From the IMG/VR virus record IMGVR_UViG_3300043567_000641, positions 1-42,570 of that record: a stretch of DNA of 42,570 nt, one strand, 5' to 3'. The notes under the pieces were generated by a model, which saw only the letters and a list, made by a program, of their open reading frames with translations, was not told where the DNA came from and did no database searches. Each line of letters starts with the position of its first letter. Positions within the stretch are counted from its first letter, which is position 1. Source of the DNA: a virus. Both the position numbers and the translations under genes were made by a program. Positions 7,948-24,954 of this stretch are shown here, piece by piece.

Positions 7948-8712
7948 CTAAAAGTTCGTTACTTTGTTTTGGTACAAGTATTCTTGCCCGACATCTTTTT
8001 TTAAGTTTAAAAGCCATGTGTGTGGACTTCTTACAGTATCTGGGGTTTCGCTTGGGCTTTGCAATTGGCCAGTGTCGCCATGGCAAAACCATTGTAAATA
8101 TACTACGCGATGACCTGCAGTGACCGGTGTTACTTCGTGCGCGCCTAGATACGTTGACGGGTACATCGCAATATCTCCTGCTTCCAGTCTTACAGATACG
8201 TCCCACATTCTAAAGTAGAGATCTCCACCCTCGTAGTCACTAGACCACGAGAGTCCCGCTGTCACTGTGTTATGCAGTGGCATCTGATTTATCGGCTTGT
8301 AGTTTTCGTCGAGTGGTATTGCAGAATCTGAATGGCACCCAATATTTTGTCCGTCTGAATACGTAGCAATGTGACCTTTAGTTCTCCAAGCGATGGCTTC
8401 TATTACTACTGGAAAGATTCTGCAATACTCAACAATGCATTTATACAGAGCGTCTTCGCACGCTTGTGAAAAGTCAACCAAGTGCTGTGGAGTATCGTCG
8501 ACGACAGTCTCTACAAACCGTCCTGGCGCGATGTCAATCGACTTTCGGTCAAATTCATATCCAGATGAATTGACTACAGTGTCGTCTTTATCGAAAAAGT
8601 GTTGTTCCTTTTTGCTGTTTAAGTACTCCATGTACTCTCTGATCAGCACGTCATCGACGTCTATAGCGTTCTTAAAGAGAACAATTCCATTTCCAAGATT
8701 GCTAATCTGCAT
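7948..8712 (-). CDS. 2OG/Fe(II) oxygenase, prolyl-4-hydroxylase-like (copy 1)
   Basis: A 254-aa 2-oxoglutarate/Fe(II)-dependent dioxygenase. The double-stranded beta-helix carries the metal triad H127-x-D129 (CHSD) and H192 (AHEV), and R202 for 2-oxoglutarate binding. The bridging stretch SDYEGGDLYF matches the other copies. I start at ATG 8712 because GAGGAG sits just upstream, although a TTG at 8724 is in frame. It overlaps the upstream oxygenase by 11 bases. Copies 1-3 are longer and closer to each other (shared GH(I/V)xxY before the HSD) than to copies 4-11. Confidence 0.85.
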   Translation of the reverse strand: MQISNLGNGIVLFKNAIDVDDVLIREYMEYLNSKKEQHFFDKDDTVVNSSGYEFDRKSIDIAPGRFVETVVDDTPQHLVDFSQACEDALYKCIVEYCRIFPVVIEAIAWRTKGHIATYSDGQNIGCHSDSAIPLDENYKPINQMPLHNTVTAGLSWSSDYEGGDLYFRMWDVSVRLEAGDIAMYPSTYLGAHEVTPVTAGHRVVYLQWFCHGDTGQLQSPSETPDTVRSPHTWLLNLKKDVGQEYLYQNKVTNF

Positions 8713-9586
8713 TGTACTCCTCAAATGAAAAACCTGGAATTGACAATGTTATACCACTATTCTTTACTAGACGGACGAAGTCATTTCTAAGCGTTGGCAT
8801 GTACACGTTTGTTGCAGTTTTAGCCACGTCAGGGTCTTTGTTCGGATCAGTGACGCTTTCATTGACGGCAGTGTTTGGCGTGCCATGAGAGTACCAACCT
8901 AGATATGAGTAGCGCACTCCAGAACTGACTGGCTTAACCTCGTGTGTCGCCATGTAGTTTGATGGGAACATCAAGACATCTCCACGCTTAGGTTGAATTT
9001 CGATGTCTAAATAGTTGAAGTAGTGGTGTCCACCGCAAAAAGAAGTACTAGTGACTTGGTCGTCTGTGTCTACACAGTCGTTTAGATACATAAGCACGGT
9101 CGTTGTATTGCGCGTGGCTAGTTGATCGCCAGGCTCTGGTAAGCCATAGACATAGTCAGCACTTGTATCAGAATGCGCGCCAAGATACACACCACGCTTA
9201 TATGAAACAACGTGTCCTTTGACTTTCCACCAAATGTTTTTATAGGCCATTGGAAATAAAGTTAAGTACTTTAAGAGGTACTTATCTCGAGAGTCTTCAA
9301 GAAAATCTAAAAAGTCTTTGAACTCACCATCATTTGTTGTGTGTATTTGCGACGCGCGACGTGGCATTTGCTCAACAGTGTCAAGGTCAAAGTAGTATCC
9401 GCTTCTATTTAGAAAAGATTCTTTTCCAGTCTCTGGATTAATAGCTTTCGTGTACATGTGAGACTGCTCTGCTTGGAGTTCACGCTCAATCCAGTTGATT
9501 GCAATCTCGCAGTCCCAATCGAGCGCGCCTCTAAAGATGACGACACCGCCACCTAAGTGCTCTGGAGCTGCGTCATTGAACTTCAC
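8702..9586 (-). CDS. 2OG/Fe(II) oxygenase, prolyl-4-hydroxylase-like (copy 2)
   Basis: A 294-aa dioxygenase with H138-x-D140 (AHSD), H215 (THEV) and R225 (GVRYSYLGW). It opens with EHLGGGVVIFRGA, nearly shared with copy 3, and has an insertion of about 20 residues between MYLNDCVD and the GGHHYFNY strand in place of the shorter DDYEGG turn. The C-terminal 60 residues after the fold have no counterpart in copies 4-11. The start overlaps copy 3 by four bases (ATGA). Substrate unknown; the nearby fibre proteins are candidates. Confidence 0.85.
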   Translation of the reverse strand: MKFNDAAPEHLGGGVVIFRGALDWDCEIAINWIERELQAEQSHMYTKAINPETGKESFLNRSGYYFDLDTVEQMPRRASQIHTTNDGEFKDFLDFLEDSRDKYLLKYLTLFPMAYKNIWWKVKGHVVSYKRGVYLGAHSDTSADYVYGLPEPGDQLATRNTTTVLMYLNDCVDTDDQVTSTSFCGGHHYFNYLDIEIQPKRGDVLMFPSNYMATHEVKPVSSGVRYSYLGWYSHGTPNTAVNESVTDPNKDPDVAKTATNVYMPTLRNDFVRLVKNSGITLSIPGFSFEEYNAD

Positions 9587-10440
9587 TTTACGTGATCCTT
9601 TTGTCTATTTGACACTGCAAGCAAGTGCGACGGTCTAGTGCTAGCGTCTGGGTATTTTTCAACAATGTATTGCTCGTAGTCTTCAATAATTGTCTTCATC
9701 CAATACTGACCGCCAATGGCAGAAGAACTTTTTTCATGCTGGGGATTGACACCGCGCTTTTCGTCTTCTGATCCCTGGGCAAACCAACCAAGATACGAGT
9801 AACGTGTCCCGCGTGTTACTTCTAGGATTTCATGAGCGCCAATGTAGTTTGCTGGCATCATGCAGATATCCCCTGTGCGTGGCTTGATGTCGACATCAAA
9901 GTATGGAACTGTCATATGACCACCAGAAAAAGAGTACGGAGTTTCTTCTTCGCCTTCGTCGACACAGTCATTAAAGTAGATAAGTGCGCTTAGCACATTC
10001 CGTGTTGCATGTTCTGTCGGCGGAACAGCACCATAGCGGTAGTTGACATCGTTATCTGAGTGAAACCCAAGGGCACCGCCTTTATCGTAGGCCAAGATGT
10101 GACCTTCGCTTCTCCACCATAGCGACTGAAGAATGGCTGGAAACATCTCGATGTACCGCAGCAGCGCTACGTACAGAGCTTTTTCACATTCGGCGAAGAA
10201 TGGATGGTCCAAGTTCATCATTCTTACTGGTGCTTTACTCGTCTTTTCAAGATCGTAAATAAATCCGCCTTGATTGACTGCGTGAAGTGGCTTACCGTTT
10301 TCATCACGCACTATGGTGAACATCTGGCTTCGAGCTTCTTCTTTAAGCTCCTCTAGGTGTGGAATGACTACGTGTTGCGGCACTTCGATTGCATTTCTAA
10401 ATACAACAGTTCCGCCGCCTAAATGTTCAGCGCTACTCAT
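9583..10440 (-). CDS. 2OG/Fe(II) oxygenase, prolyl-4-hydroxylase-like (copy 3)
   Basis: A 285-aa dioxygenase starting MSSAEHLGGGTVVFRNA. Iron ligands are H127-x-D129 (FHSD) and H203 (AHEI), and the 2OG-binding residue is R213 (GTRYSYLGW). ATG 10440 is chosen because the protein then begins level with copy 2. An upstream in-frame ATG at 10497 would add 19 unconserved residues and abut the plus-strand AspH-like gene in a shared CATATG. The tail GQYWMKTIIEDYEQYI parallels that of copy 2. This is the first gene after the strand switch, so its promoter must lie inside the AspH-like gene or in 10441-10497. Confidence 0.84.
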   Translation of the reverse strand: MSSAEHLGGGTVVFRNAIEVPQHVVIPHLEELKEEARSQMFTIVRDENGKPLHAVNQGGFIYDLEKTSKAPVRMMNLDHPFFAECEKALYVALLRYIEMFPAILQSLWWRSEGHILAYDKGGALGFHSDNDVNYRYGAVPPTEHATRNVLSALIYFNDCVDEGEEETPYSFSGGHMTVPYFDVDIKPRTGDICMMPANYIGAHEILEVTRGTRYSYLGWFAQGSEDEKRGVNPQHEKSSSAIGGQYWMKTIIEDYEQYIVEKYPDASTRPSHLLAVSNRQKDHVK

Positions 10441-10497
10441 ATGTCCAATAGTATCACTAGTCGCGCCTAAAAATGTGAAGCTAGATAAGATACTCAT

Positions 10498-11166
10498 ATG
10501 AAAGAACCAGCCTTTTGGGAAGACGTAATTGCCGATCTGCCAGTGTGCGTCGCTTTTAGAGAAAACTGGAGAAAGATTCTTGAAGAAGCTCGTGAGTATC
10601 TTGCAATTAGTCCTGACTTTTTGATTTCGTACCCGGCTATAGAAGTAGACGATCTTGAAAAGCCAGGAGAAAAAACAAAAGTATATTCTGGAAATTCATG
10701 GAAAGTTGCTACTGCAGGAATAAAAACTGACGATGCTATGACTTCTCTTGGCGGTCCGTTCATTGCAAAATATGTCAAGAAGACCGTTGGGATAGAGCTG
10801 AGTGACGTTGTCTCGTCTGTAGCTTCTGTGCTTCCAACGATTCATAAAATCGCAAAACCGCTTGAAGACGCTGGGCACATGTTTAATGGAGTGTTTAGCG
10901 TGGTCAGCCCAGGCACAGCGATCGCTCCGCACAGAGGCGACAGCAATTTAATGAGAGTTCATCTTGGTTTGGTGTGTGATCCTTTATGCGAAATAACTGT
11001 AGGGCCAGACAAGCGGACTTGGAAAGAAGGAGAACTTCTAGCCTTTAAAGACGGAGGAGCTTATCCGCACAGTGTCACGCACAACGGAACGCATGACAGG
11101 CTTATACTTATATTTGATCTAACACTCGACTATTTGCGGTCAGTGATAGATCACCCTATGCTGTAG
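10498..11166 (+). CDS. Aspartyl/asparaginyl beta-hydroxylase-like oxygenase
   Basis: A 222-aa protein with the Asp/Asn beta-hydroxylase (AspH/LpxO-type) fold. FSVVSPGTAIAPHRGDSNLMRVHLGL contains H145, with G in place of the second acidic ligand as is usual for this family. Next come TWKEGELLAFKDGGAYPHSV with H191 and the Arg of DRLILIFDL (R201). AspH enzymes hydroxylate Asp or Asn in proteins, LpxO a lipid acyl chain. It is the only plus-strand gene in the oxygenase block. Both flanking genes converge or diverge with minimal spacing: the ATG abuts a minus-strand ATG, and the 3' end overlaps the next gene by 11 bases. Confidence 0.82.
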   Translation: MKEPAFWEDVIADLPVCVAFRENWRKILEEAREYLAISPDFLISYPAIEVDDLEKPGEKTKVYSGNSWKVATAGIKTDDAMTSLGGPFIAKYVKKTVGIELSDVVSSVASVLPTIHKIAKPLEDAGHMFNGVFSVVSPGTAIAPHRGDSNLMRVHLGLVCDPLCEITVGPDKRTWKEGELLAFKDGGAYPHSVTHNGTHDRLILIFDLTLDYLRSVIDHPML

Positions 11167-13033: not shown

Positions 13034-13065
13034 ATTATACGCCGTATAAGCGCCATGTCTTATAC
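13034..13065 (-). promoter_or_regulatory. Candidate promoter -10 box with adjoining inverted repeat
   Basis: On the minus strand a perfect -10 TATAAT lies at 13039-13034. Immediately upstream, GTATAAG (13044-13050) and CTTATAC (13059-13065) form a perfect 7-base inverted repeat with an 8-base spacer, straddling where a -35 box should be. No good -35 hexamer is present, which fits an activator- or repressor-controlled promoter. It would drive the 12980-11156 genes and overlaps the stop of the upstream gene. Confidence 0.4.
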
Positions 13066-13761
13066 CTCTGGGGCATTTAGCTTTACTGGCCCGGCGTATT
13101 GAGGGCCAATTCGTACGCCATCTGCGTCTAAACCTGTCTTGATCCCTTTAGTCCATGTCCATGGATTTTCAACATTATTCTTCATTTTGACATCGCTGTA
13201 CTTCATGCGAGACTTAATCAGTTCTGAGTTGTCCCATAGATTCGACACTTCAAATTCAACGGACGGCATAGTGTCTTCTTTGTAGATCGAAAAGAAGCAA
13301 AATGGTGACCCTGCTGGGAAAGTAACTGGTTCGCCTACTTTAGTGATCTTCCAGTTCATTTGTACTTCGTCTGGCCACCAAGAACTTGGAATAGCCGCGG
13401 CAAGTGGGACAGCGCCATCGATAAAGTAGTTAGGAGACCCGGTGAGCCATGTTGCGTAGCCTTCTTCAGTATTAACTGTCCATCCCATCCCGATTGAAAT
13501 AATTCCAATAATGGATGGAAATGCTACTTGACGTCCGTTTTGTTCTCCTCCGCTAATTACAGTAACGGGGTTATTTCCGCCGTCCCACTGGACAACTAGA
13601 TCTTCTTCAAGAATAAGTTCCCACCCCATAACATTAGCAACAGTCATCGGCAGGCACTGATACGCGTGCTTGTTGTGCGTATCGTCCATCCAATCGCGCT
13701 TAATGCGAGACTGCTCAATACGTGGAGCAGTCTGATGGTTTCTCGTAAGGCGCACTTTCAT
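13060..13761 (-). CDS. DUF6065-like protein
   Basis: A 233-aa protein that looks like the DUF6065 family: a conserved N-terminal CLPMTVANVMGWELI block, GIISIGMGW, TWLTGSPNYFIDGAVPL, and WWPDEVQMNWKITK followed by FPAGSPFCFFSIYK. Tryptophan is unusually frequent. The function of the family is not established; assignment is from memory of the motif order. It starts one base before the oxygenase stop upstream (shared base 13761) and so is coupled to it, at the downstream end of the copies 4-11 run. This hints at a role with the oxygenases, perhaps as substrate or partner. Confidence 0.6.
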   Translation of the reverse strand: MKVRLTRNHQTAPRIEQSRIKRDWMDDTHNKHAYQCLPMTVANVMGWELILEEDLVVQWDGGNNPVTVISGGEQNGRQVAFPSIIGIISIGMGWTVNTEEGYATWLTGSPNYFIDGAVPLAAAIPSSWWPDEVQMNWKITKVGEPVTFPAGSPFCFFSIYKEDTMPSVEFEVSNLWDNSELIKSRMKYSDVKMKNNVENPWTWTKGIKTGLDADGVRIGPQYAGPVKLNAPEV

Positions 13762-14477
13762 CAGGCTAAGAACCTTCCGTCAACGCTTTGCTGACTACCG
13801 TGCACTGGAAGTCCAGCACCTTCTGTTGCTTTAGTGCCATCAATGTTTTCTCCATAGCCTTGCTTGTGTGTTCTATCATTGTAGTCAAACATAGTCACAG
13901 CTGCGTACTTGACCCCGCTTGTCACTGCCTTTGACGCGTGGGCGTAGATGTATGTAGAAGGGAAAAATATTATGTCCCCGTATGACGGCTTAAATGCCAC
14001 ATCAATAAACGGAAACCACAATTCACCTCCTTCATAGTCATCGTTCAGATACATTACAGATGACACAGTGCAGTTATATGAAAACCCGTGGTCAGTGTGT
14101 AGACCAAAGTGCTGCCCTGTCCCGTACCGCACGTAGTTTATTGCTTCCATAAAATCCATACGAATGTTGTATCGAGACTCATAGTCGCGGAGGCACTCTG
14201 TTAAGCGTGCCACCGTGTCGTTATAGATATTCTTCATTTCAGAAAACTGTGGAGGAAGGTGCTGAATGTGGGTAGGACCCATTTTGCAGTCGACACAGTC
14301 GCGGTACTCCGGCATTTTCTGCGCATCACCAACAAGAGCATCCATCCACATGAACGGTGCCATTGTGCTGGTTCCAATGGTCTCTTCAAGACGCTCGATT
14401 AGACGTAATTCTTTTGGTAGTGCATTTCTATAGACAATAAGACCAAATTTAGGATCACCGATATATTCGTGTTGCAT
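13761..14477 (-). CDS. 2OG/Fe(II) oxygenase, prolyl-4-hydroxylase-like (copy 4)
   Basis: A 238-aa dioxygenase with H127-x-D129 (LHTD), H180 (AHAS) and the shared YLNDDYEGGELWFP block. The residue that normally binds the 2OG carboxylate, ten after the distal His, is Lys (K190, SGVKYAAV) instead of Arg. Lys at this place occurs in some 2OG enzymes, so activity may be kept, but it is unique among the copies here. The N-terminal domain with three Cys (C61, C64, C94) also differs. Its stop and start abut neighbours with one-base overlaps. Confidence 0.85.
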   Translation of the reverse strand: MQHEYIGDPKFGLIVYRNALPKELRLIERLEETIGTSTMAPFMWMDALVGDAQKMPEYRDCVDCKMGPTHIQHLPPQFSEMKNIYNDTVARLTECLRDYESRYNIRMDFMEAINYVRYGTGQHFGLHTDHGFSYNCTVSSVMYLNDDYEGGELWFPFIDVAFKPSYGDIIFFPSTYIYAHASKAVTSGVKYAAVTMFDYNDRTHKQGYGENIDGTKATEGAGLPVHGSQQSVDGRFLA

Positions 14478-15139
14478 TATTTGTTTTCTCCGTTTGCGGC
14501 TTCAGCAAGCTTAAATACTTGCAGAAATACGTCAATTATTGTTGCGTCCGACAAGAATAAAGAATACGTGTATCTATTGCCACTAGTAATTTCTGCGACT
14601 TCGTGTGGGTATAGACTTGTTGCTGGAAAAAGTACAAGTGTCCCTGGCGTAGGTTTCGTCTTGTAGTTTTGCTTTGGAAACCACAATTCACCGCCCTCGT
14701 AGTCGTCGTTCAAATAGACAACAGACGAGTAAAGAATCACAGGAGGAGGCGCGGCGATACCGCTTCCTAAAAATTGGCTGACGTCTACAGAGCCATCTCG
14801 CGGTGTTGCTGTAGAGTCAGCGTGCCTTTCAAGTAGATCGCCGATCTCCCAGCGATTAAACCTGCCAGTGTCGTCGTAGCGCTGGATATTCGCTCCGAAT
14901 TCGTAGCTAGCTAGGCTTTCTATCTCAGTAATTATGCTCTCTAGCTCAATAAAGTCTGCAATGTTGTCAGGATTCGCATATGACGAGGGGGCACCAGGAT
15001 GCCAGTCGTCTTCTCTAAGTACCGTGCGAATCCTATTTACTTCACTGGGCGTAAGAAAGTCTTTTACAACAATGATGTTTCTATCAGAACCACCACGTTT
15101 CATATTTTCAATAGTAGTCAGTTGCTTTTTCTTGTCCAT
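14477..15139 (-). CDS. 2OG/Fe(II) oxygenase, prolyl-4-hydroxylase-like (copy 5)
   Basis: A 220-aa dioxygenase opening after a short basic leader with NIIVVKDFLTPSEVNRIR, the entry strand typical of P4H-like proteins. Metal ligands are H106-x-D108 (RHAD) and H179 (PHEV), with R189 (GNRYTY) for 2OG. YLNDDYEGGELWFP is identical to copy 4. ATG 15139 has a GAAAG-type ribosome-binding site and overlaps copy 6 by 32 bases. A second Met at residue 13 (15103) would remove the overlap and is possible. Confidence 0.86.
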   Translation of the reverse strand: MDKKKQLTTIENMKRGGSDRNIIVVKDFLTPSEVNRIRTVLREDDWHPGAPSSYANPDNIADFIELESIITEIESLASYEFGANIQRYDDTGRFNRWEIGDLLERHADSTATPRDGSVDVSQFLGSGIAAPPPVILYSSVVYLNDDYEGGELWFPKQNYKTKPTPGTLVLFPATSLYPHEVAEITSGNRYTYSLFLSDATIIDVFLQVFKLAEAANGENK

Positions 15140-15866
15140 GACTGTCTTTCGTATCTTGGTTCTTTATCATTCTAAACATATCTAAGTACACTTCTGACAG
15201 ATTGATGCTAGATAAAAAGAAATTGTGCGTGTAGCGATGGCCACTAAGTACTTCTTTTACTTCGTGTAGATACATACAATTGCCGGGGAACATGATCAGC
15301 GTGCCTGGTTTTGGCTTTATTTCTATGTCATGCAGTGGAAAGCATATCTCTCCGCCGTCATAGTCATCATTAAGATATATAAGCGCCGAGTACATAATAA
15401 GAAACGGAGGAAGACTGTGGCCAGCGTAGGTGCGCAATGTCGCTGTGCACGATTCGTTTTCAGAGTCGGCGTGCAGTTTTAGCGAGTCGCCAGAGTCCCA
15501 TCGATTGACACTTCCTAGATTTACAGACTCTGAGGTAGAACCGTACACGCATAGTCTAGTACCGTACGTGCGACTTGCTAAATCTACAGCACGCGTCACT
15601 TGATCTTTTGCGCAGCGCATAAATTTTTTGTCTACTTCTCCGTAATTTGTGACAGCGTCATTAGAAAATTTTCCTCTACTCCACGAAACAGTGCTAAGTA
15701 GATCCATCCAATCTTTTATTTTCTCTTGAGAAATAAAATCTTCTATGATAATAATGTTATTCGCAGATCCTGGCACTAGATTCTGTGCTTCTAAATCTCC
15801 ACGTCCGATTGGCGTTTCGTTTTTTGTACGTCTATTGCGCTGAATTTCATACACCATACGTGTCAC
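15108..15866 (-). CDS. 2OG/Fe(II) oxygenase, prolyl-4-hydroxylase-like (copy 6)
   Basis: A 252-aa dioxygenase: NIIIIEDFISQEKIKDWM entry strand/helix, H132-x-D134 (LHAD), YLNDDYDGGEICFP, H201 (LHEV) and R211 (GHRYTHNFF). It is clearly the closest relative of copy 5 (both have an APPP/LPPF stretch before the YLNDD block and similar tails), so a recent tandem duplication with divergence is likely. The GTG start overlaps the upstream TGA (GTGA); an ATG three codons later is an alternative. Confidence 0.86.
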   Translation of the reverse strand: MTRMVYEIQRNRRTKNETPIGRGDLEAQNLVPGSANNIIIIEDFISQEKIKDWMDLLSTVSWSRGKFSNDAVTNYGEVDKKFMRCAKDQVTRAVDLASRTYGTRLCVYGSTSESVNLGSVNRWDSGDSLKLHADSENESCTATLRTYAGHSLPPFLIMYSALIYLNDDYDGGEICFPLHDIEIKPKPGTLIMFPGNCMYLHEVKEVLSGHRYTHNFFLSSINLSEVYLDMFRMIKNQDTKDSHGQEKATDYY

Positions 15867-16462
15867 CCGACAATGCTAAAGAATAACGGAGACGACCAGC
15901 GTGCTCCTTTTTCAATTGTATCAACGTAGTGAAGATGCGTCGCACCGCCTGGAAATATGGCTACTTTTCCTGCAGTAGGAGAAATGCGCACATTATGCTG
16001 AGGAAACACTAAATCGCCTCCTCTAAAGTCTTCATTATGGTACATAACGGCCGAAATGTCGTAGTCCTCCATTCCAAGTTTTGGAGTGCCGTCTATGTTT
16101 TCTTTATCAGCATGCACTTGCTTAACTTTTGAGCGCTCGTCGAGCCGCACTAAAGACGGCTCTCTAAAAATAAGACTACATTCAAATAGTTTTTCTGCCT
16201 CATGCATTACGCGCCTTGCACAGGCTTCAAGAGCTAAATACGAGATTGGGCTGATGTCGAACAGAATGTCCGCACCACAAGTTGTCTCTATCCATGCATC
16301 AGCGTCATAGAGCACACTTCCTTTGTCGTCAAATCGTGTCACTGGGTCATAGTTCCAAAGGTTTATCATTGACGCAAGCTGCATTATTGAAGACAGCTCA
16401 TCTAATGTCACAAGCCCATCTACTTCGTAAATATTTACGTTGTGCCTTGTTATGTTCATCAT
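15863..16462 (-). CDS. 2OG/Fe(II) oxygenase, prolyl-4-hydroxylase-like (copy 7)
   Basis: A 199-aa dioxygenase, the shortest in the block. Residues are H117-x-D119 (VHADKEN), YHNEDFRGGDLVFP, H178 (LHYV) and R188 (GARWSSPLFF). It pairs with copy 10 (17950-18588): both share an N-terminal W(N/D)…LYDAD(A/Y)W segment, HADK and a TP/SP-F-(F/Y) C-terminal strand. The protein ends only 11 residues after R188, so it is a minimal catalytic unit. A five-base gap separates it from copy 8. Confidence 0.84.
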   Translation of the reverse strand: MMNITRHNVNIYEVDGLVTLDELSSIMQLASMINLWNYDPVTRFDDKGSVLYDADAWIETTCGADILFDISPISYLALEACARRVMHEAEKLFECSLIFREPSLVRLDERSKVKQVHADKENIDGTPKLGMEDYDISAVMYHNEDFRGGDLVFPQHNVRISPTAGKVAIFPGGATHLHYVDTIEKGARWSSPLFFSIVG

Positions 16463-16467
16463 TTTAT

Positions 16468-17166
16468 TTACTGAAAATACGCAAGCATAGATTTTGGCAT
16501 GTTCTGGCGTGTAAATACTCCAGACGAATTCATAGATTGCTGCTCGTCGCGATCGATGATTACCATGTCTGAACGGTCTTGCACAAATGTCTTCCAGATG
16601 TACTTTAGCTTTGGAGTAGTAAAAAACGTCATCAACGCGTATCTATTGCCAAAAGTAACTTCTTTAACTCCGTGTACATAATGCTGTGTTCCAGGAAAAA
16701 ATATGAGTTCTCCCGGGCTTGGCTTTATTTCTAGATCTAAATCTGGAAAATAGATCTCACCGCCTTCATAGTCGTCATTGAGGTAAGTCAGCGCCGCGTA
16801 TTCTATAAAGATCGATGAAAAATTGTTTAGCGGTGTCATTACAGTATTTCCAGTTTCTGGATCGTCAAAAAAGATTGACTCACAGTCGGAATGCGGATCT
16901 TGCTTTTCTCCAGGATACCAATTGCGCAGTGCCGTGCCACAGGTATCTACAACGTCTAGCCCGAAGACATCAGTGACTTCTTTAGCTACTTTCTTAGTAT
17001 ACGCTTTTGTCCAATCAGCAATTTCTGTATTGTAGTCAGCTTGTACTATTGCTCTTGATGTGCTCTGCTGCAATACGTTGTCTTTTGCACTGTACTCAAG
17101 CACGGCCTTGACATCAGCAGCATTTAAGAAATTTGGAACTCTATGGACGTTACCTATCTGCGGCAT
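16468..17166 (-). CDS. 2OG/Fe(II) oxygenase, prolyl-4-hydroxylase-like (copy 8)
   Basis: A 232-aa dioxygenase with VHRVPNFLNAADVKAVLEY at the start, H92-x-D94 (PHSD), YLNDDYEGGEIYFP, H165 (VHGV) and R175 (GNRYALMTFF). About 25 residues between the HxD motif and the YLNDD block (MTPLNNFSSIFIEYAAL) parallel copies 5 and 6. The C-terminal 45 residues (TWKTFVQDRSD-like helix onward) lie outside the core. The first Met shares its base with the upstream stop (17166). Confidence 0.85.
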   Translation of the reverse strand: MPQIGNVHRVPNFLNAADVKAVLEYSAKDNVLQQSTSRAIVQADYNTEIADWTKAYTKKVAKEVTDVFGLDVVDTCGTALRNWYPGEKQDPHSDCESIFFDDPETGNTVMTPLNNFSSIFIEYAALTYLNDDYEGGEIYFPDLDLEIKPSPGELIFFPGTQHYVHGVKEVTFGNRYALMTFFTTPKLKYIWKTFVQDRSDMVIIDRDEQQSMNSSGVFTRQNMPKSMLAYFQ

Positions 17167-17939
17167 TACTCATGAACATAATCGTAGTCGTAGTTGCCTC
17201 GCGCGCCGCGAGGCATATGTGTGTCGACATTCCACTCTGCTGGAAATTTTTCTTTTTGCTCATCTGTCAGCGCGGAGTACATATTGTATGCGTTGCTATG
17301 TAGTTCAATCAGCTTTGGTCTTGCTAAGTGAGTGATGATATTCCAACGTGGACTGCCACTTTCTATAGCATGCACCCCGTGCATGTACTCATGCGAGCCG
17401 GGGAACCACACAAGCTGGCCCGGCACATGTTCGATTGTGATTCCGTACTGTTCAAAGTACAACTGGCCACCTACAAAATCGTTATTGACGTAAATGTTTG
17501 CTGACATGTCAATTAAATTAGGCTCATAGACATGCAGCGGTGAGTATTCTGGCAAGAACGCTGTCCCAGTTGGGCCTATTCCTTCTGAATCAGTGTGTCC
17601 GGGGCAAAAACCGCCTACAGCAGTTTCCATTCTACAAAAGTCAAAGATAGGAACGAGCTGGTGCCCCGCTTCGTAGCTAATCATTTGTTTCAACTTGATC
17701 ATGTATTTTTTGAGTAGAGGGTGAAAGTTAGGGTTACCCCACTCGCGGCGAACAGTCGCGCATTGTTCTTTATATGTGCCAAGCGCGGCGTTGATATAGT
17801 CTTCCGTTGGCACACTCTTTTCGTTCCACCATTTGTCGTCTGACTTGTTTCTGCAGAGATCGTCAAGCACTGCAAGATCTTGTGGTTCTATGAAGTCATT
17901 AAATACTCTAATGTGGCTTGGGCTTGCTGGAGTGTTCAT
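17166..17939 (-). CDS. 2OG/Fe(II) oxygenase, prolyl-4-hydroxylase-like (copy 9)
   Basis: A 257-aa dioxygenase, more divergent. It has HIRVFNDFIEPQDLAVLDDL at the start, H115-x-D117 (GHTD), NNDFVGGQLYF, H187 (MHGV) and R198, one residue further from the distal His than in the other copies (ESGSPRW). ATG 17939 is chosen for its AGAAAGAA ribosome-binding-like sequence and its position after the upstream stop; the longer frame from 18002 adds 21 residues over copy 10. The last 60 residues are Tyr/Asp/Gly-rich (GNYDYDYVHE). Confidence 0.82.
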   Translation of the reverse strand: MNTPASPSHIRVFNDFIEPQDLAVLDDLCRNKSDDKWWNEKSVPTEDYINAALGTYKEQCATVRREWGNPNFHPLLKKYMIKLKQMISYEAGHQLVPIFDFCRMETAVGGFCPGHTDSEGIGPTGTAFLPEYSPLHVYEPNLIDMSANIYVNNDFVGGQLYFEQYGITIEHVPGQLVWFPGSHEYMHGVHAIESGSPRWNIITHLARPKLIELHSNAYNMYSALTDEQKEKFPAEWNVDTHMPRGARGNYDYDYVHE

Positions 17940-17949
17940 GTATTTCTTT

Positions 17950-18588
17950 CTAATTAAACGATGTAACTGTGTAAAACGAAGGAGTTGTGTATCTGTACCC
18001 ACTCGTGACCATAGTTACTCCATGCAAATAATTTATATCACCCGGATGTAAGACAGCCAGACCTGGTTGCGGTCTAATTACAACATCATGATCTGGATAG
18101 AAAAGATCTCCGCCTTCAAAATCATCATTGTAGTAAAATAGAGAGTTGAGATCGTAGCTTGGAAACGCATTTGGCTGGCCATCGTTAAGCTGTTTGTCTG
18201 CATGCGGGCGCTGTTCAGTTCCAGGACGCCATTTCATAATCACTGGTGGACGCTTACTGACCTTGCAGTTAAAGTGATCTTCGATCACGCGCTGCATCTT
18301 GTCAATGTACTTATCAATAATATGCCACACCTGCGGATTGATTCTTTCAAGAATATCAGTACTACATTGGCGATCGTTCCAGTAGTCTGCGTCGTAGAGA
18401 CATGTGCCATCTTCAGCATAGACAGATTCTTTTTCGTTGTTCCACTCGTCAATAGTTGGGCAAAACTCTTGAATAATCTTAAGATCGTCTAAGTCAATAA
18501 AATTGTCAATAGTAATAATGTTGTCTCGTGAGTTGCCAAAGTGGCCTGGTGCGACATCCCAGGGGGCATTGCTAGAGTTGCTTAGCAT
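17950..18588 (-). CDS. 2OG/Fe(II) oxygenase, prolyl-4-hydroxylase-like (copy 10)
   Basis: A 212-aa dioxygenase with NIITIDNFIDLDDLKIIQEF, H129-x-D131 (PHADKQ), YYNDDFEGGDLFYP, H189 (LHGV) and R199 (GYRYTTPSFY). It ends soon after the core, like copy 7, to which it is most similar. Its start overlaps the end of the sulfotransferase gene by 17 bases, so the two are probably translated together. Confidence 0.86.
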   Translation of the reverse strand: MLSNSSNAPWDVAPGHFGNSRDNIITIDNFIDLDDLKIIQEFCPTIDEWNNEKESVYAEDGTCLYDADYWNDRQCSTDILERINPQVWHIIDKYIDKMQRVIEDHFNCKVSKRPPVIMKWRPGTEQRPHADKQLNDGQPNAFPSYDLNSLFYYNDDFEGGDLFYPDHDVVIRPQPGLAVLHPGDINYLHGVTMVTSGYRYTTPSFYTVTSFN

Positions 18589-19345
18589 TTTTATTCTCTT
18601 TCATCTTTATGTACTGGTAAATTTCTTCGTCGACTTGAGTTTTTTCTTTTATCTTTTTAAGCTGACTATTTGTAAGGTCGAATTTAATAGGTTGAGAAGC
18701 GTTTACTTTAGCAGCATTTGAGTTAAGTTTAACACCGAACTGCTTTAGCATGAAGACGTTTACTTTGCTAATGACTTGATTTCGGCAGGCGAGTGTTCCA
18801 ACAATATGGTTGTCAACAAAGTCTTTGACTTCGTCTACGTCTAGTTCTTTGTCTTCGAAAACACTGCGCGTAGCGTCAGCGTACGGATCGTACACTTCTA
18901 CGAATCTAGACACCATAAATCTTGATTGCGTATTCGACGCACCATTAAACAGTGGCTCGTGAACATCCAAATTATAAAAGTAATTATTGATGTGCTTGTC
19001 GACAAGCTCCCGCGTGGGGACGACGCCATCGCGTAAACACCGATAAGTAATGGTGCTTAAGTATTGGGAAACAGGCTCCCGCACTAACGCAAACACAACA
19101 GGATTGTCGAAATCTTGCACCGGATTAGCAGCGAAATGCCCGCTAAAAAAATTATAATTTTCTAGTTCTGAAACTGGAGGAAGAATAAACTCGTACTCTC
19201 CTGGAACATACACTTGAAGTTTGGCAAAGCCACGTTGATCGCTTGCGCGTTGAGCACAAACGGCTTCTACTTTTTCAAGCTCTCTAAGAATTTCAGTCCC
19301 AGATGTCCTCGGTATATGTAGGTGGTATATCGGTCTGATTTTCAT
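18572..19345 (-). CDS. Sulfotransferase-family protein
   Basis: A 257-aa protein with the hallmarks of PAPS-dependent sulfotransferases: an N-terminal phosphosulfate loop YHLHIPRTSGTEIL (residues 7-20), the GHFAANP segment after a strand (69-75), and the 3'-phosphate-binding FALVREPVSQYLSTITYR (R89, S98). The family moves sulfate from PAPS to hydroxyls on sugars, steroids or protein tyrosine. ATG 19345 is required because the loop starts at residue 7; AGAAGAG precedes it. The gene sits between oxygenase copies 10 and 11, overlapping both (17 and 53 bases), which ties it to the same process. PAPS might come from the APS-kinase-like protein at 32590. Confidence 0.78.
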   Translation of the reverse strand: MKIRPIYHLHIPRTSGTEILRELEKVEAVCAQRASDQRGFAKLQVYVPGEYEFILPPVSELENYNFFSGHFAANPVQDFDNPVVFALVREPVSQYLSTITYRCLRDGVVPTRELVDKHINNYFYNLDVHEPLFNGASNTQSRFMVSRFVEVYDPYADATRSVFEDKELDVDEVKDFVDNHIVGTLACRNQVISKVNVFMLKQFGVKLNSNAAKVNASQPIKFDLTNSQLKKIKEKTQVDEEIYQYIKMKENKNAKQL

Positions 19346-19925
19346 AGCGCTCTTCTGTCATTCTAACTAGCATTTTATGTTTCACAGGGATCCAAAAGTG
19401 CGGAGACGTGAACCGCACTCCGGAAGTAATTGGCAGGACTTCATGCACATAGTATGTACTTGACGGAAAAAATATAAAAGTACCGGCGATTGGTTTGTAT
19501 GTAATGTCATACGCTGGAAATCTAATTTCTCCACCTTCGTAATCGTCATTAAGATACATTATCGATCCGTAATCGTCCATGTACGTTTCAGTTGGAACGC
19601 CGTCAAACGTTTCTCCATCAGCGTGCGGTTCTTGCAGATCACCCACGTCCCAGCGCCTAATTCCAGGTACTGCTGGATCGACTTTTCTACCAAACTTATA
19701 CTCTATAAGCATCTGAGCTTTTTCTAAATACTCAAGCATTATAGAGTAAAGGTGTGGGTTACTCGCTTTCATTGCAGTTGCTGGACTAATTTTGTCTGTG
19801 CCTGCAATAGACTTTGGCGACCAGTCTTTTATAGTCTTGCAATACTCGTGAGCTAGCTTTAAGTGCTCTACCGATACAAAATTCTCTAAGACTACGATAT
19901 TGCTTGGATCAGCAGTTTCGTACAT
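19293..19925 (-). CDS. 2OG/Fe(II) oxygenase, prolyl-4-hydroxylase-like (copy 11)
   Basis: A 210-aa dioxygenase starting just five bases after the stop of the PPYF-tailed fibre gene. It has NIVVLENFVSVEHLKLAHEY, H101-x-D103 (PHADGE), YLNDDYEGGEIRFP, H161 (VHEV) and R171 (GVRFTSPHFW). All 2OG/Fe residues are intact. This is the first oxygenase after the fibre genes and likely shares their transcript, the best positional argument that fibre protein is a substrate. Confidence 0.87.
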   Translation of the reverse strand: MYETADPSNIVVLENFVSVEHLKLAHEYCKTIKDWSPKSIAGTDKISPATAMKASNPHLYSIMLEYLEKAQMLIEYKFGRKVDPAVPGIRRWDVGDLQEPHADGETFDGVPTETYMDDYGSIMYLNDDYEGGEIRFPAYDITYKPIAGTFIFFPSSTYYVHEVLPITSGVRFTSPHFWIPVKHKMLVRMTEERYENQTDIPPTYTEDIWD

Positions 19926-19930
19926 TAAAC

Positions 19931-21223
19931 TTACTTAAATCCGGGCGGGAAGAATGGAGGAAAGTACGGCGGGAAGTAAGGAGGAAAGTATGGGGGGAAA
20001 TAAGGAGGAAAGTACGGCGGGAAGTAAGGAGGAAAGTACGGGGGGAAATAAGGAGGAAAGTACGGAGGAGCAACAGGAGTGGCATTACCTGTCTGGAAAG
20101 TTAAGCTACTGCCATAGGCGTTTACAGCAACACCTTGGGCAAAGTACTCAGTGCCATTTGTCAAACCAGTGACAGTGACCGGTGAGGCAGCGTTGCCACT
20201 GCTAGTACTAATAAGAGCGCTGTCACTGGTTCTATATATGCGAATAGTATATGTCTGTGCTCCGGTTCCGCCGTTGGGCCAGACTAGCGCAAAAGTAACT
20301 GTTACTTGAGCGTTACCTGCAGCGATACTGAAATCACTCCAGCTTGCGCTGGGCGCTCCCGGCCTGTAACCGTTTGCTACTGCCGCAGACGCAGTAGATG
20401 CTGGCGACGTACCGTAGGCGTTTGTCGCTGTAGCCGTAAATGTTCGCGCGGTGCCCCGAGGATCCAACGCCCAGAACGAATAGTTTGGAGTGGCGCTGCC
20501 TGTACTGATAGTTTGACCAGTAGAAGCGGTAAAAGTGAAGTTTGTGTTTGCCCCCGTTCCAAGAGTCAAACTTCCTACACTGACACTGTATGTGCCACCC
20601 ACGCTATCGTTTGAAGCAGTAAGACCCGTTAGGTTTGATGGCCTGTTACCAGCAGTCACAGAGTTAGATGCAGAAGATGTAGCAGTTCCATACACGGTAG
20701 AGGCTGTAACTGTAAATGTATATGCAGTGCCTGCTGTAAGACCAGAGACACGAATTGGCGACGCACCAGTTGCTGTAATTCCACCAGGAGAAGAAGTGGC
20801 TGTGTACGTTACAGAGCCGGATGTTCCTGTAGATCCTGCAGTGTATGGGACGTCGATATTTCTATCAACGTTTTGCACGATGACTGCTGTTCCGATTGTT
20901 GGAGCAGACGGAGCAATACCCATGACAAGCGATGCGCTTGTGCCAGATGCGCTAGACTGAACGCCAGTAACTGAAACAGCTGTGACAGTGAAAGTAACTG
21001 TTGAGCCAGCGGTTAACCCAGTGACTTGAATAGGACTTGAAGATCCAGTTCCAGTTTGACCAGAGCTTGCAGTTACTGTGTAAGAGATTGTGCCTTTACC
21101 GGTATATGTTGACGGAGTAAAAGCTACTGAAGCGACAGTGCTCGATACCCGAGTTGGCGTACCAATTACAGGTGCAGTCGGCTGTTTGCCGCCACTCTCT
21201 ACGTCACCAGATGTCATGCTCAT
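19931..21223 (-). CDS. FN3-repeat fibre/adhesin protein with PPYF repeat tail
   Basis: A 430-aa protein of four fibronectin-III-like domains, each about 90 residues and ending in patterns such as VTGLTAGSTVTFTVTA, VSGLTAGTAYTFTVTA and VTGLTNGTEYFAQGVA. They are followed by a 44-residue C-terminal tail of eleven tetrapeptides: nine PPYF, one PPFF and one PPGF. FN3 domains are common on phage tail fibres and capsid decorations and bind carbohydrate surfaces. ATG 21223 forms an ATGA overlap with the large fibre gene and has GGAGA upstream. The tail should form an extended polyproline-type rod and gives 22 prolines as possible hydroxylation sites and nine tyrosines as possible sulfation sites. 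Confidence 0.85.
   Translation of the reverse strand: MSMTSGDVESGGKQPTAPVIGTPTRVSSTVASVAFTPSTYTGKGTISYTVTASSGQTGTGSSSPIQVTGLTAGSTVTFTVTAVSVTGVQSSASGTSASLVMGIAPSAPTIGTAVIVQNVDRNIDVPYTAGSTGTSGSVTYTATSSPGGITATGASPIRVSGLTAGTAYTFTVTASTVYGTATSSASNSVTAGNRPSNLTGLTASNDSVGGTYSVSVGSLTLGTGANTNFTFTASTGQTISTGSATPNYSFWALDPRGTARTFTATATNAYGTSPASTASAAVANGYRPGAPSASWSDFSIAAGNAQVTVTFALVWPNGGTGAQTYTIRIYRTSDSALISTSSGNAASPVTVTGLTNGTEYFAQGVAVNAYGSSLTFQTGNATPVAPPYFPPYFPPYFPPYFPPYFPPYFPPYFPPYFPPYFPPFFPPGFK
19937..20068 (-). repeat. Tandem repeat encoding (PPxF)11
   Basis: Eleven 12-base units at the 3' end of the FN3 gene. In the Tyr repeats the Phe codon alternates TTT/TTC between neighbouring units, so the DNA really repeats with a 24-base period. 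This suggests growth by duplication of two-unit blocks. Such arrays can change copy number by slippage, which would alter the length of the fibre tail. Confidence 0.9.
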
Positions 21224-24200
21224 GCTGAAAGGTCTCCTACTGCTACCCAAGTATCTGTTGCTCGTTTAATCAATGTAGCAGATGCCCACTGAGTTCTAAG
21301 CTTAAGACCTGGCGTACCATTTATCGTAACACCAGCGCCTGCAGTAAGTGTGCATTGACCAGTGTTTGTTTGAAGAACTCTAATTTGAGAACCTACTGGA
21401 AATGCAACTGATGAGTTTGGCGGAACTGTTAAAGTGTTCCCAGAAGCGACGCTCATTTCAACCAACTTGTTTTTGTCTGCCAAGACGAGTGTGTAGCTTG
21501 CTGTTTGCGCGTTAGTTGAAATATCAGCCAGTTTACCAAGGTCAATTGCGGCAGTTGTTGAAATGTCGGCGTCAACAATTGTGGCATCGGCAATCATCGT
21601 GCTAGTGATAGTTCCAGAAGGAGCAGAGAATGTTCCCGTAAATGATGCGTTATTGATTGGCGCTGCGTCAGTGATGCCGTATCCAGAAAGCGTTGTTGGG
21701 TTTGTTCCAGCAGTTACTCGGCCGTAGGTATCAACTGTTACTGACTTGTAGGTGCCGATTGTGGCAACTCCAGAGGCGAGATCAATGTTGTCTGCGTTGA
21801 CAACAATTCTGTCAGTAGACGCAGTGCCAACATTAAGAATGTTTCCATCAAATGCAAGACCAGCGCCGCCAGTTACAACTTGAGCTGCATTGAATACTGC
21901 GTACGTAATGTCGTCAGTTCCAATAACAATTGGGCTTGCAGTAGAGTTGTTGATATATCCGTAGCCAGAGTTAGTTGAACCACCAGTTACGAAGCAGAAG
22001 TCTCCATTTTCCATTTCACCTGATGGGTTGTTGTCTGCATCAGTTGCTCTGGTTACCACCCAAGGAGCGCTGACGCTTCCAACTGCGGTAACGGTATAAA
22101 TACCATTTTCTTTTGGATCAGTCTGCGACTTGAGAAGAATTCTGCTTCCAACAATTACTGTTGCACCGTCAATAGTTCCAATTGAACCATTTGTTGCTTT
22201 TGTAATTGTTGCGCCTACACCGCTGGTTCCATTGTTGTATGTTCCAGCGAGATTGCCAGTTGTTGCTGCAACTACTGACTCATGAAAGTTTACTCCAGAG
22301 ACAACGTTGTCAACATACTGCTTTGTTGCTGCTTGAAGTGCAGAACCTGGATCAGCAGCAAGTGTCACTGTTCCAGTAAATGTTGGACTTGCGGTTGGCG
22401 CCTTCGTATCAATCTGTGTTTGAATCGCAGATGTTACGCCGTCTACGTAATTAAGTTCCGTGGTACTAAGCGTTGCACCATCAAGAATGTTGAGCTCAGT
22501 CGCTGTTGCCGTAAGAGCTACGTTTTCATTGATGTTTGGCGATGTAAGAGTTTTATTTGTGAGAGTCTGGGCATCGCTTGTACCGACAATAGCTCCAGAC
22601 ACGCCGTGAGTTGTTGTTAATGCCGCGTGAGTCGATACGTAACCTGAAGCTGTAGATTCTGCATTAGTTTGCGCAGTCGCTGCTGCGCCATACGCATCAT
22701 ATGTGTTGGCGGTTACTGAAATTGCGCCCGTTGAGTCTGTGTATGTAAGACCAGTTCCCACTGCGTTGCCAACAGCGTCTTGAGCGCGCTCATCTGTGAA
22801 GTACTGATTAGTTCCTTCTTCAATTGCAGTCGTTGTGATTGCGTCTACAGCAGAAGTAATGTCTGACGTAAGAGCGACTGTGCCTGTTGCGTCGGGCAGT
22901 GTAATTGTGCGGTCCGCCGTAGGATCAACAACTGTAACGGTGGTCTCGAAATCGTTGGCAGTCGTGCCTTCAAAGATGACACCAGAACCGTCGACATTTG
23001 GCGATGTAAGAGTTTTATTTGTGAGAGTCTGGGCATCGCTTGTACCGACAATAGCTCCAGACACGCCGTGAGTTGTTGTTAATGCCGCGTGAGTCGATAC
23101 GTAACCTGAAGCTGTAGATTCTGCATTAGTTTGCGCAGTCGCTGCTGCGCCATACGCATCATATGTGTTGGCGGTTACCGCTACTGTCGGGCTAGCGCCT
23201 TCGCCGCTGTTATTACTTAGTGTAATGCCGGTGCCTGCGGTAAGACTTTCTACATAGCTACCAGACGTATCAGTACCAAGAGTAATTGCAGTATCTGCGG
23301 TTACAGCGCCAGTTACTCGGCCATATGAGTCAGTTGTAAATGATTGAACAAATGACTTACCGGCAGAACCGCTTGTGTTTGTGCGGGTGACAGTTGCAAG
23401 ATCGATGTCGTCTGAGTTTACAACAATACGGGCCGCGTTCGCTGTTTGTACGTTTACAACATTTCCTGTTGTAGCAAGACCAGCGCCAGCGGTAAAAGTA
23501 GCTGTACCAGTAAATTGCCCGAAAGTAATGTCATCAGTACCAATAACGTATGTTCCATTTGTACCGGTTCCGGTTGACAGTGTGATAAATCCTTGATTAG
23601 CACTAGACGAGCCAGCAGTGACGTACACTGCGTCTCCACTTGCGCCGATGTGCTCAAATGATGGACTTGCATCAAAGTCTGCTGCTCTTGTAAGAACATA
23701 AGGTGCACTTACGCTACCTTGAGCTGTTACTACATACACGCCGTTTTGTTTTGCATCGGCTTGATCTTTAATAAGAACTCTGTCGTTTGTTGTTGCGTTA
23801 GCGCCGTCAATAACTAGTCGCGCGTTTGAAGCGGCAGTAAGTGTTGCACCAACTCCTGATGTTCCGTTGTCATAGGTTGGTGTTCCTGGAAGAACTGCGG
23901 CTGTTCCAAGTTTTACTGCATCGTGCCACACAATTCCAGCGGCATGAAAGTCTACATACGCTTTAGTTGCTGCGTGATTGACGTCTGTTGGAGCAGAGCT
24001 AATAGTGACGTTAGCAAATGTTGGTGAAGCAGACGTTGCAACACTTTGTCCAATTGCAACTGTAGGAGATGAGCCTTCGCCTGGTGTGTGAGTTACCGTT
24101 ACGCCTGTGCCGGCAGTTACATCATTGACGTAGTTTCCAGTTGTGTCCGTTCCTAGAGCAATTGTTCCACTTATGGCAAGGGTTCCGCTCGCATCAGGAA

Positions 24201-24954
24201 GACTTACAGTTCTGTCGGCGGTTGGGTTAACAACGGTGAGTACTGTTTCAAACTCATCTGTTGTTGCACCTTCAAATGTAATAAAATGTGGCTCTGGAAG
24301 ATAGATACCATGAATTCTTGGAGTTCCACCAGTAGCCGTGATTTCTGGTCCATTGATGGTTGGCGTAGTAAGTGTTTTGTTGGAAAGAGTTTGAGTTGTA
24401 TCTGTACCAACAAGGGTTGTCGTTGCGTCAGGCAGGGTAATAGTTCTGTCTGCAGTTGGGTCGGCTACAGAGAGAGTAGTTTCAAACTCGTCAGCAGTTG
24501 TGCCTTCAAAAGTAATGTTTCCATTTAGGTTCAGTCCAGCAAATGTTGGAGTTGTATTTGTTGCTACAGATTGACCAATTGCAATTGTTGGCGTGGAGCT
24601 TTCACCGCTATTGTTTGTGAGTGTTACACCTGTTCCAGCGATAAGACTTTCAACAAATGAGCCTGCTGTATCAGTTCCAAGGTTGACTGCATCGTTAACC
24701 CATGCTGTGCCGTTCCAACGAAGGAAGTCACCATTTGCTGCAGACGTAATAGTTACATCTAAAAGATCATTTAGGTTTGATCCCGACAAGTTTCCATTGA
24801 AGTAAGAAAGCGATGTCCACGCAGTGGTGCCGTCACCAATCTTGAACTTATTGGTGTCTGTTTCATACCCAATTTCACCGGCAAACAATACTGTGTTTGC
24901 AGACGTCCATTGAGATGCTGTAGCCCTCTTTAGTTGAATTCTTGCTCCAGCCAT
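21220..24954 (-). CDS. Large tail fibre protein
   Basis: A 1244-aa fibre. The N-terminus (IQLKRATASQWTSAN, GEIGYETDTNKFKIGDG) is the short attachment module found on many phage fibres. The shaft holds repeated TDTTQTLSNKTLTTPTI and FETTLSVADPTADRTITLP units and two copies of a globular module of about 200 residues (AATKxYVD… DRVLIKxQ… NGIY/VTAxGSVSAP… IGTDDI), also seen once in the 25465-26949 fibre. The C-terminus (YTLVLADKNKLVEM… TLTVPPNSSVAFPVG… LIKRATDTWVAVGDL) is a widespread fibre tip. No chaperone is adjacent. A perfect 182-base internal duplication lies at 22535-22716 and 22997-23178. Confidence 0.9.
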   Translation of the reverse strand: MAGARIQLKRATASQWTSANTVLFAGEIGYETDTNKFKIGDGTTAWTSLSYFNGNLSGSNLNDLLDVTITSAANGDFLRWNGTAWVNDAVNLGTDTAGSFVESLIAGTGVTLTNNSGESSTPTIAIGQSVATNTTPTFAGLNLNGNITFEGTTADEFETTLSVADPTADRTITLPDATTTLVGTDTTQTLSNKTLTTPTINGPEITATGGTPRIHGIYLPEPHFITFEGATTDEFETVLTVVNPTADRTVSLPDASGTLAISGTIALGTDTTGNYVNDVTAGTGVTVTHTPGEGSSPTVAIGQSVATSASPTFANVTISSAPTDVNHAATKAYVDFHAAGIVWHDAVKLGTAAVLPGTPTYDNGTSGVGATLTAASNARLVIDGANATTNDRVLIKDQADAKQNGVYVVTAQGSVSAPYVLTRAADFDASPSFEHIGASGDAVYVTAGSSSANQGFITLSTGTGTNGTYVIGTDDITFGQFTGTATFTAGAGLATTGNVVNVQTANAARIVVNSDDIDLATVTRTNTSGSAGKSFVQSFTTDSYGRVTGAVTADTAITLGTDTSGSYVESLTAGTGITLSNNSGEGASPTVAVTANTYDAYGAAATAQTNAESTASGYVSTHAALTTTHGVSGAIVGTSDAQTLTNKTLTSPNVDGSGVIFEGTTANDFETTVTVVDPTADRTITLPDATGTVALTSDITSAVDAITTTAIEEGTNQYFTDERAQDAVGNAVGTGLTYTDSTGAISVTANTYDAYGAAATAQTNAESTASGYVSTHAALTTTHGVSGAIVGTSDAQTLTNKTLTSPNINENVALTATATELNILDGATLSTTELNYVDGVTSAIQTQIDTKAPTASPTFTGTVTLAADPGSALQAATKQYVDNVVSGVNFHESVVAATTGNLAGTYNNGTSGVGATITKATNGSIGTIDGATVIVGSRILLKSQTDPKENGIYTVTAVGSVSAPWVVTRATDADNNPSGEMENGDFCFVTGGSTNSGYGYINNSTASPIVIGTDDITYAVFNAAQVVTGGAGLAFDGNILNVGTASTDRIVVNADNIDLASGVATIGTYKSVTVDTYGRVTAGTNPTTLSGYGITDAAPINNASFTGTFSAPSGTITSTMIADATIVDADISTTAAIDLGKLADISTNAQTASYTLVLADKNKLVEMSVASGNTLTVPPNSSVAFPVGSQIRVLQTNTGQCTLTAGAGVTINGTPGLKLRTQWASATLIKRATDTWVAVGDLSA
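22535..22716. repeat. 182-base perfect direct repeat, copy A
   Basis: Identical to 22997-23178 (offset 462). Within the fibre gene it encodes VTANTYDAYGAAATAQTNAE through TLTNKTLTSPN. The perfect identity, with divergent flanks, points to recent duplication or gene conversion inside the fibre. Confidence 0.93.
22997..23178. repeat. 182-base perfect direct repeat, copy B
   Basis: Second copy of the 22535-22716 repeat. The 462-base offset is a multiple of three, so recombination between the copies would delete or add 154 residues in frame and change shaft length without breaking the protein. Confidence 0.93.

Follow-up and report, generated by a model that had tools for sequence, protein, structure and literature searches.

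The window, by which we mean the whole 42,570-base IMG/VR virus record analyzed here, which derives from an environmental sample, carries a predicted PAPS-dependent sulfotransferase gene set among genes for 2OG-Fe(II) oxygenases, close to those for an FN3-domain protein and a long tail fiber (Table 1). A WhiB gene (PF02467 match) in the same record hints at an actinobacterial host. The first-pass annotation had placed a sulfotransferase ORF at this position, and we confirmed it on the minus strand; the plus-strand frame across the same interval is riddled with stops. The protein (MKIRPIYHLHIPRTSGT...NFFSGHFAANP...VFALVREPVSQYLSTITYRC) contains a 5'-PSB loop, HIPRTSGT, at residues 10 to 17, and a 3'-PB segment, VREPVSQYLS, at residues 88 to 97 that runs from R89 to S97, as well as an NxQ motif and a C-terminal D239..Y243. 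His70, within SGHF, is the candidate catalytic residue. Because nine residues precede the PSB motif, the start codon is well fixed and the gene truly overlaps the upstream oxygenase gene, by 53 nt. A second overlap, of 17 nt, joins the sulfotransferase gene to the downstream oxygenase gene, so the overlaps described earlier at both ends are present, and both neighbors match the window oxygenase profile.

Table 1. Features of the sulfotransferase-oxygenase cassette in the window
Feature	Coordinates	Strand	Remarks
PAPS-dependent sulfotransferase gene (predicted)	18572..19345	-	ATG start at 19345, stop at 18572; 257 aa; PSB, SGHF, 3'-PB, NxQ, D239..Y243
2OG-Fe(II) oxygenase, adjoins sulfotransferase upstream	19293..19925	-	PF13640, E 3.6e-8; window oxygenase profile
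2OG-Fe(II) oxygenase, adjoins sulfotransferase downstream	17950..18588	-	PF13640, E 9.5e-5 (below cutoff); profile match
Six more tandem 2OG oxygenase genes	13761..18002	-	Pfam search and profile; members 17166-18002, 16468-17166, 15863-16462, 15108-15866, 14477-15139, 13761-14477
Three more 2OG oxygenase genes, same cluster	7948..10497	-	Profile
FN3-domain tail protein	19931..21250	-	PF00041, E 1.7e-9; C-terminal nine PPYF units, PPFF, PPGFK
1,244-aa tail fiber with Mtd_N domain	21220..24954	-	PF18454, E 3.1e-13; phrog_8745 tail fiber
DUF6065 protein, recurrent cassette member	13060..13761	-	PF19541, E 5.5e-43; also in L124

The nine PPYF units that had been noted nearby lie in the FN3 protein, two genes upstream of the sulfotransferase gene, and this array protein is the likely modified partner. 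Just upstream of it sits the long fiber, with its Major tropism determinant N-terminal domain. Besides the eleven related 2OG oxygenases of Table 1, the window encodes two further oxygenase-like proteins (34010-35321) and an Asp/Asn beta-hydroxylase (10498-11166; PF05118, E 2.3e-22), the latter on the opposite strand inside the oxygenase cluster. Glutathione-peroxidase-like genes (PF00255) border the oxygenase cassette or lie within it, both in the window (7333-7935) and at two other loci (L150, 4478-5416; L039, 4326-5327), and DUF6065-like proteins recur beside oxygenases in related phages.

Family assignment and predicted fold

Searched alone, the window sulfotransferase gave no Pfam match at E <= 1, nothing in NCBIfam, only chance-level sequence matches in the PDB, and no match in the GenBank phage collection. 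A weak PHROG match (galactose-3-O-sulfotransferase, E 0.042) spanned the stretch from SGHF to the 3'-PB, and the top match among 72,556 plasmids was a "sulfotransferase family 2" protein (E 0.2). A scan of viral contigs for the HIPRT-type PSB pattern, together with phmmer, recovered true homologues that are 24 to 29% identical in the alignment, and an alignment-based search of viral contigs returned 156 relatives, 80 of which were kept. Two scans of genome contigs for cellular relatives yielded three weak matches and no host or donor lineage, and cultured phages gave no match to two of the relatives, the FN3-array protein, or DUF6065. A query with the bare repeat gave no match in cultured phages either, probably because low-complexity filtering removed it.

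We aligned 36 homologues, nearly all of them 22 to 32% identical to the window protein, and found Y7, H10, I11, P12, T14, G16, G69, H70, P75, R89, P91, S97, N138, Q140, N215, D239, and Y243 to be invariant; the motifs shared across the family are H-I-P-x-T-x-G, G-H, R-x-P, S, and N-x-Q. Both phosphosulfate-binding motifs reported in the first-pass annotation were thus borne out and are kept in all 36. The motifs are beyond chance, given their invariance in the alignment, the recurrence of the gene as near-identical copies in nine other metagenome contigs, and the mostly synonymous change among these copies. Between the window and three of the contig copies there are 12 synonymous and 5 nonsynonymous differences, and the resulting pN/pS of 0.11, drawn from few changes, suggests that the protein is functional.

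The only convincing PDB match of the 36-member profile was heparan-sulfate 6-O-sulfotransferase 3 (HS6ST3; E 6.5e-9). Since 15 of the 36 relatives match PF03567 (Sulfotransfer_2) at E <= 0.01 and the window protein, which falls short of the Pfam Sulfotransfer_2 cutoff, has no Pfam match, we file it on its sequence as a diverged relative of PF03567 and not as a member. Its 3'-PB departs from the PF03567 consensus PxxRxxS (PMC11625862), reading P91-V-S-Q94-Y-L-S97 with Gln at the Arg position, where relatives have mostly R, H, or Q. The PSB loop has Arg13 where Lys is usual; the superfamily hallmark is a 5'-PSB strand-loop-helix with Lys or Arg, and a PSB Arg is also present in Mt Stf0 (PMC11625862).

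An AlphaFold2 model of the protein (pLDDT 86.2, pTM 0.87) has an alpha/beta fold with a central sheet, in which strand 6-9 leads through the 5'-PSB into helix 16-33, and strand 83-88 is followed at the 3'-PB by helix 91-105, in keeping with the strand-turn-helix and conserved Ser that mark this site in the superfamily; the invariant R89 and S97 fall in this region. The top solved-structure matches of the model are sulfotransferases, the best being heparan-sulfate (HS) 2-O-sulfotransferase (HS2ST; Z 16.2 over 220 residues at 3.7 A), followed by HS 6-O-sulfotransferase (HS6ST; Z 12.9), with the remaining sulfotransferases at Z 8.9 or below. The first-pass annotation had proposed a structural comparison with tyrosylprotein and glycan sulfotransferases, and in that comparison the tyrosylprotein enzymes were not the nearest (TPST1, Z 7.2). 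On the strength of this confident model and the cofactor motifs, we assign the gene product to the PAPS-dependent sulfotransferases, with a fold of the HS2ST/HS6ST-like class.

The likeness to HS2ST (3f5f, 4ndz) and HS6ST (5t03, 5t05) extends over the whole-protein fold, the PSB loop, and the Arg..Ser of the 3'-PB. In HS2ST the PSB loop is Pro82-Lys83-Thr84 (PMC6081452) and the catalytic residue is His142 (PMC6081452; PMC6094399). By order and spacing, P12-R13-T14 and H70 would correspond to these residues: His142 lies 59 residues past Lys83 (numbering from PMC6081452), and His70 lies 57 past Arg13. However, the phage protein is short (257 aa), is 13 to 17% identical over the aligned part, has Arg for the PSB Lys, and is encoded in a tail cassette without a known tie to polysaccharide synthesis. 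TPST1 and TPST2 share the superfamily fold (Z about 7), but the match is much weaker than that to HS2ST, and the repeat tyrosines are not conserved in the presumed target. Viral sulfotransferases are already known, and annotated examples exist. The closest viral predicted structures are two sulfotransferases of uncultured Caudovirales phages (BFVD A0A6J7WJG4 and A0A6J7WKC8; E about 2e-10), which are 20 to 22% identical to the window protein and annotated by family only. Among cultured phages, the predicted structures of two sulfotransferases (E3SP23 of Prochlorococcus phage P-SSM7 and B2ZYD5 of Ralstonia phage phiRSL1) and of Gp5.1 of Roseobacter phage SIO1 showed marginal resemblance (Foldseek E 0.01 to 0.04).

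Linkage to oxygenases and repeat arrays

To describe the surroundings of the gene in related phages, we searched all fetched loci with profiles built from the 11 oxygenases of the window and from the sulfotransferases. The subfamily set comprised 35 distinct representatives (85% identity clusters, window included) and was compared with 29 viral sulfotransferases that are more distantly related and were recovered by the same motif. A 2OG oxygenase lay within 3 kb in 32 of the 35 subfamily representatives, compared to 1 of the 29 distant ones (Fisher p 1.4e-13, a descriptive value that overstates independence, as members of the sets have common ancestry and were selected for similarity), and in 21 of the 35 an oxygenase lay within 60 bases of the sulfotransferase gene. 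The earlier proposal of a job shared with the oxygenases had taken the gene overlaps as its sign. We rejected that line of evidence, because most adjacent genes of the same strand run overlap; it is the conserved linkage that speaks for the proposal.

The common surroundings include a long fiber, an FN3 protein with terminal P/F repeats, oxygenases, DUF6065, small ORFs, a methyltransferase-like gene, and an Asp/Asn hydroxylase, and they occur in two gene orders. One runs array, oxygenase, sulfotransferase (one or two copies), oxygenases; the other runs array-Hint gene, sulfotransferase, Asp/Asn hydroxylase, oxygenases (for example, L122, L124, L131, L133, L135, L143, L149, L154, and L166). The strongest evidence that the enzyme serves the tail is that it is kept with the repeat gene and the oxygenases in both orders.

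A Hint/intein-like C-terminal domain was observed on the P/F-repeat protein of these nine loci and of L130 and L168. It starts with C[IV]D and ends with HN plus a few residues, most of the proteins ending in ...VVHN, and it gives a weak PF14890 match (E 8e-4, below the cutoff). The arrangement looks as if the repeat end of the tail protein in this lineage were released or joined to something. At other loci, two tandem, diverged sulfotransferase genes lie between oxygenase genes (for example, L104, 5995-7522; L113, 5995-7480; L109, 5983-7501), the first copy reading HIPKTSG and the second HIPRTSG. From sequence, the pair suggests two acceptor sites; whether one or two copies are present does not track with tyrosine number.

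A scan for the repeat DNA recovered at least 48 distinct arrays followed by 4 kb or more of downstream sequence; among the matches listed, an oxygenase was found at 39 of 48 and a sulfotransferase at 8 of 48, the latter including highly diverged enzymes near the array at L238, L271, L180, and L190. Given that only these 8 of 48 arrays have one, the sulfotransferase is an optional component of a broader oxygenase-plus-array system. In the DNA examined, most array phages among the matches listed lack a sulfotransferase, so the repeat by itself does not require the enzyme. Instead of a shared substrate, the linkage could reflect a tail-end region in which accessory genes gather.

We considered a phage-encoded source of the sulfo donor as well. 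An ORF at 32590-33345 has an N-terminal half of APS-kinase type (PF01583, E 3.7e-15) fused to a cytidylyltransferase/NMNAT-like part, and relatives 55 to 59% identical were seen in other phage contigs. Such a gene, confirmed with the family model, was present in 1 of 20 sulfotransferase records, compared to 6 of 20 array records picked regardless of sulfotransferase presence. As it does not track with the sulfotransferase, we do not regard this gene as a partner of the enzyme on these counts, and PAPS presumably comes from the host.

Candidate acceptors and proposed role

The PP[YF]F arrays of enzyme-bearing relatives contain 9, 8, 6, 3, or, most often, 2 tyrosines, with PPFF in the remaining units; in most sulfotransferase loci without a Hint domain, the first two units read PPYFPPYF. 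At least eight Hint-lineage loci (L122, L124, L130, L133, L135, L143, L149, and L166) have no array tyrosine at all, their units being of the PPFF or APPGFF type, and carry the enzyme immediately downstream, so a target tyrosine is not kept wherever the enzyme is kept. Tyrosine-rich arrays are often without a sulfotransferase in the DNA examined. These observations run against the first-pass suggestion that the PPYF tyrosines are the acceptor, as Phe replaces Tyr in most relatives. Given that the enzyme is kept at loci without array tyrosines, the repeat tyrosine is at most a lineage-specific acceptor. Proline, by comparison, is constant across the arrays and is the expected substrate of prolyl-4-hydroxylase-like oxygenases, from which we infer that the most economical acceptor is hydroxylated proline or some other cassette-made hydroxyl. 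Ser/Thr of the FN3 domains and a tail glycan are further candidate acceptors. We would rank oxygenase-made hydroxyls (hydroxylated Pro or other), Ser/Thr, and glycan about equally, followed by Tyr.

Taken together, we consider it likely, at a probability of roughly 60%, that the cassette both hydroxylates the phage's own tail apparatus and sulfates it with PAPS as donor. Inside the infected cell, at or ahead of the tail-assembly stage, the 2OG oxygenases would hydroxylate the tail apparatus, most likely at the array prolines (PP[YF]F units); the sulfotransferase would transfer sulfo from PAPS to a hydroxyl of that apparatus, so that negative charge would be gained near the receptor-binding end. 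A more specific version, in which the oxygenases make the array proline hydroxyls and the sulfotransferase caps some of them to give hydroxyproline-O-sulfate, is tentative and rather doubtful; a full-text search of a set of open-licence PMC papers returned no mention of hydroxyproline-O-sulfate.

Other substrates must be weighed against this. A tail sugar, for example on hydroxyproline or Ser/Thr, is a similarly doubtful acceptor. The first-pass annotation had named a glycan as a possible substrate, and the nearest folds, HS2ST and HS6ST, are indeed of the carbohydrate type, which favors a sugar by analogy only; the window also has a sugar-nucleotide-transferase-like gene (1395-2156). Yet a GT2 family search found a glycosyltransferase in only 2 of 20 sulfotransferase-bearing records, no glycosyltransferase was recognized within the cassette, and the fold does not fix the substrate. 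Sulfation of the PPYF tyrosines, in the manner of a tyrosylprotein sulfotransferase, is distinctly unlikely. The nine tyrosines of the window array, the leading PPYFPPYF of most non-Hint sulfotransferase loci, and the fold superfamily shared with TPSTs are consistent with it, as is a slight excess of tyrosine among the matches listed (share 0.25 in sulfotransferase-positive arrays versus 0.14 in the others; n of 8 and 40, p 0.05), but the enzyme loci with zero array tyrosines, the tyrosine-rich arrays without an enzyme, and the TPST Z score of 7.2 compared to 16.2 for HS2ST all tell against it.

The enzyme might instead act on a host surface glycan, lipid, or metabolite, its gene being merely parked by the tail genes. 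Phage sulfotransferases are widespread outside such cassettes, and 28 of the 29 distant ones have no nearby oxygenase; the subfamily studied here, however, stays by the tail array and the oxygenases in two gene orders, and we regard a host-directed role as unlikely. That the protein is an inactive relic, or a binding protein with a sulfotransferase fold, is highly improbable. Its position below Pfam detection and two substitutions, Arg replacing the PSB Lys and Gln94 replacing the consensus Arg, would fit such a reading, but the PSB, the His, the 3'-PB Ser, and NxQ are invariant across the family, change is mostly synonymous, and Mt Stf0 has a PSB Arg too (PMC11625862).

To our knowledge, no phage has been shown to sulfate its own tail. 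Among the open-licence PMC papers searched, we found no paper that treats phage tails, sulfation, and a sulfotransferase jointly and no description of a conserved sulfotransferase-oxygenase tail cassette. Such a conserved cassette, in which many 2OG oxygenases are encoded together with one or two sulfotransferases next to a proline-rich protein from the receptor-binding end, suggests that uncultured phages possess a dedicated system for modifying their tails posttranslationally. Were this true, the receptor binding, charge, and evolution of such phages would have to be interpreted differently from sequence data. The proposal also offers a testable claim about the role of the abundant phage 2OG oxygenases.

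The arrays also vary in a further residue. PPHF units are mixed with PPFF in the tail arrays of L195, L275, L276, L197, and L181, and L195 has up to 10 His in its array and 8 oxygenases at the locus. Such PPHF arrays are possibly metal binding.
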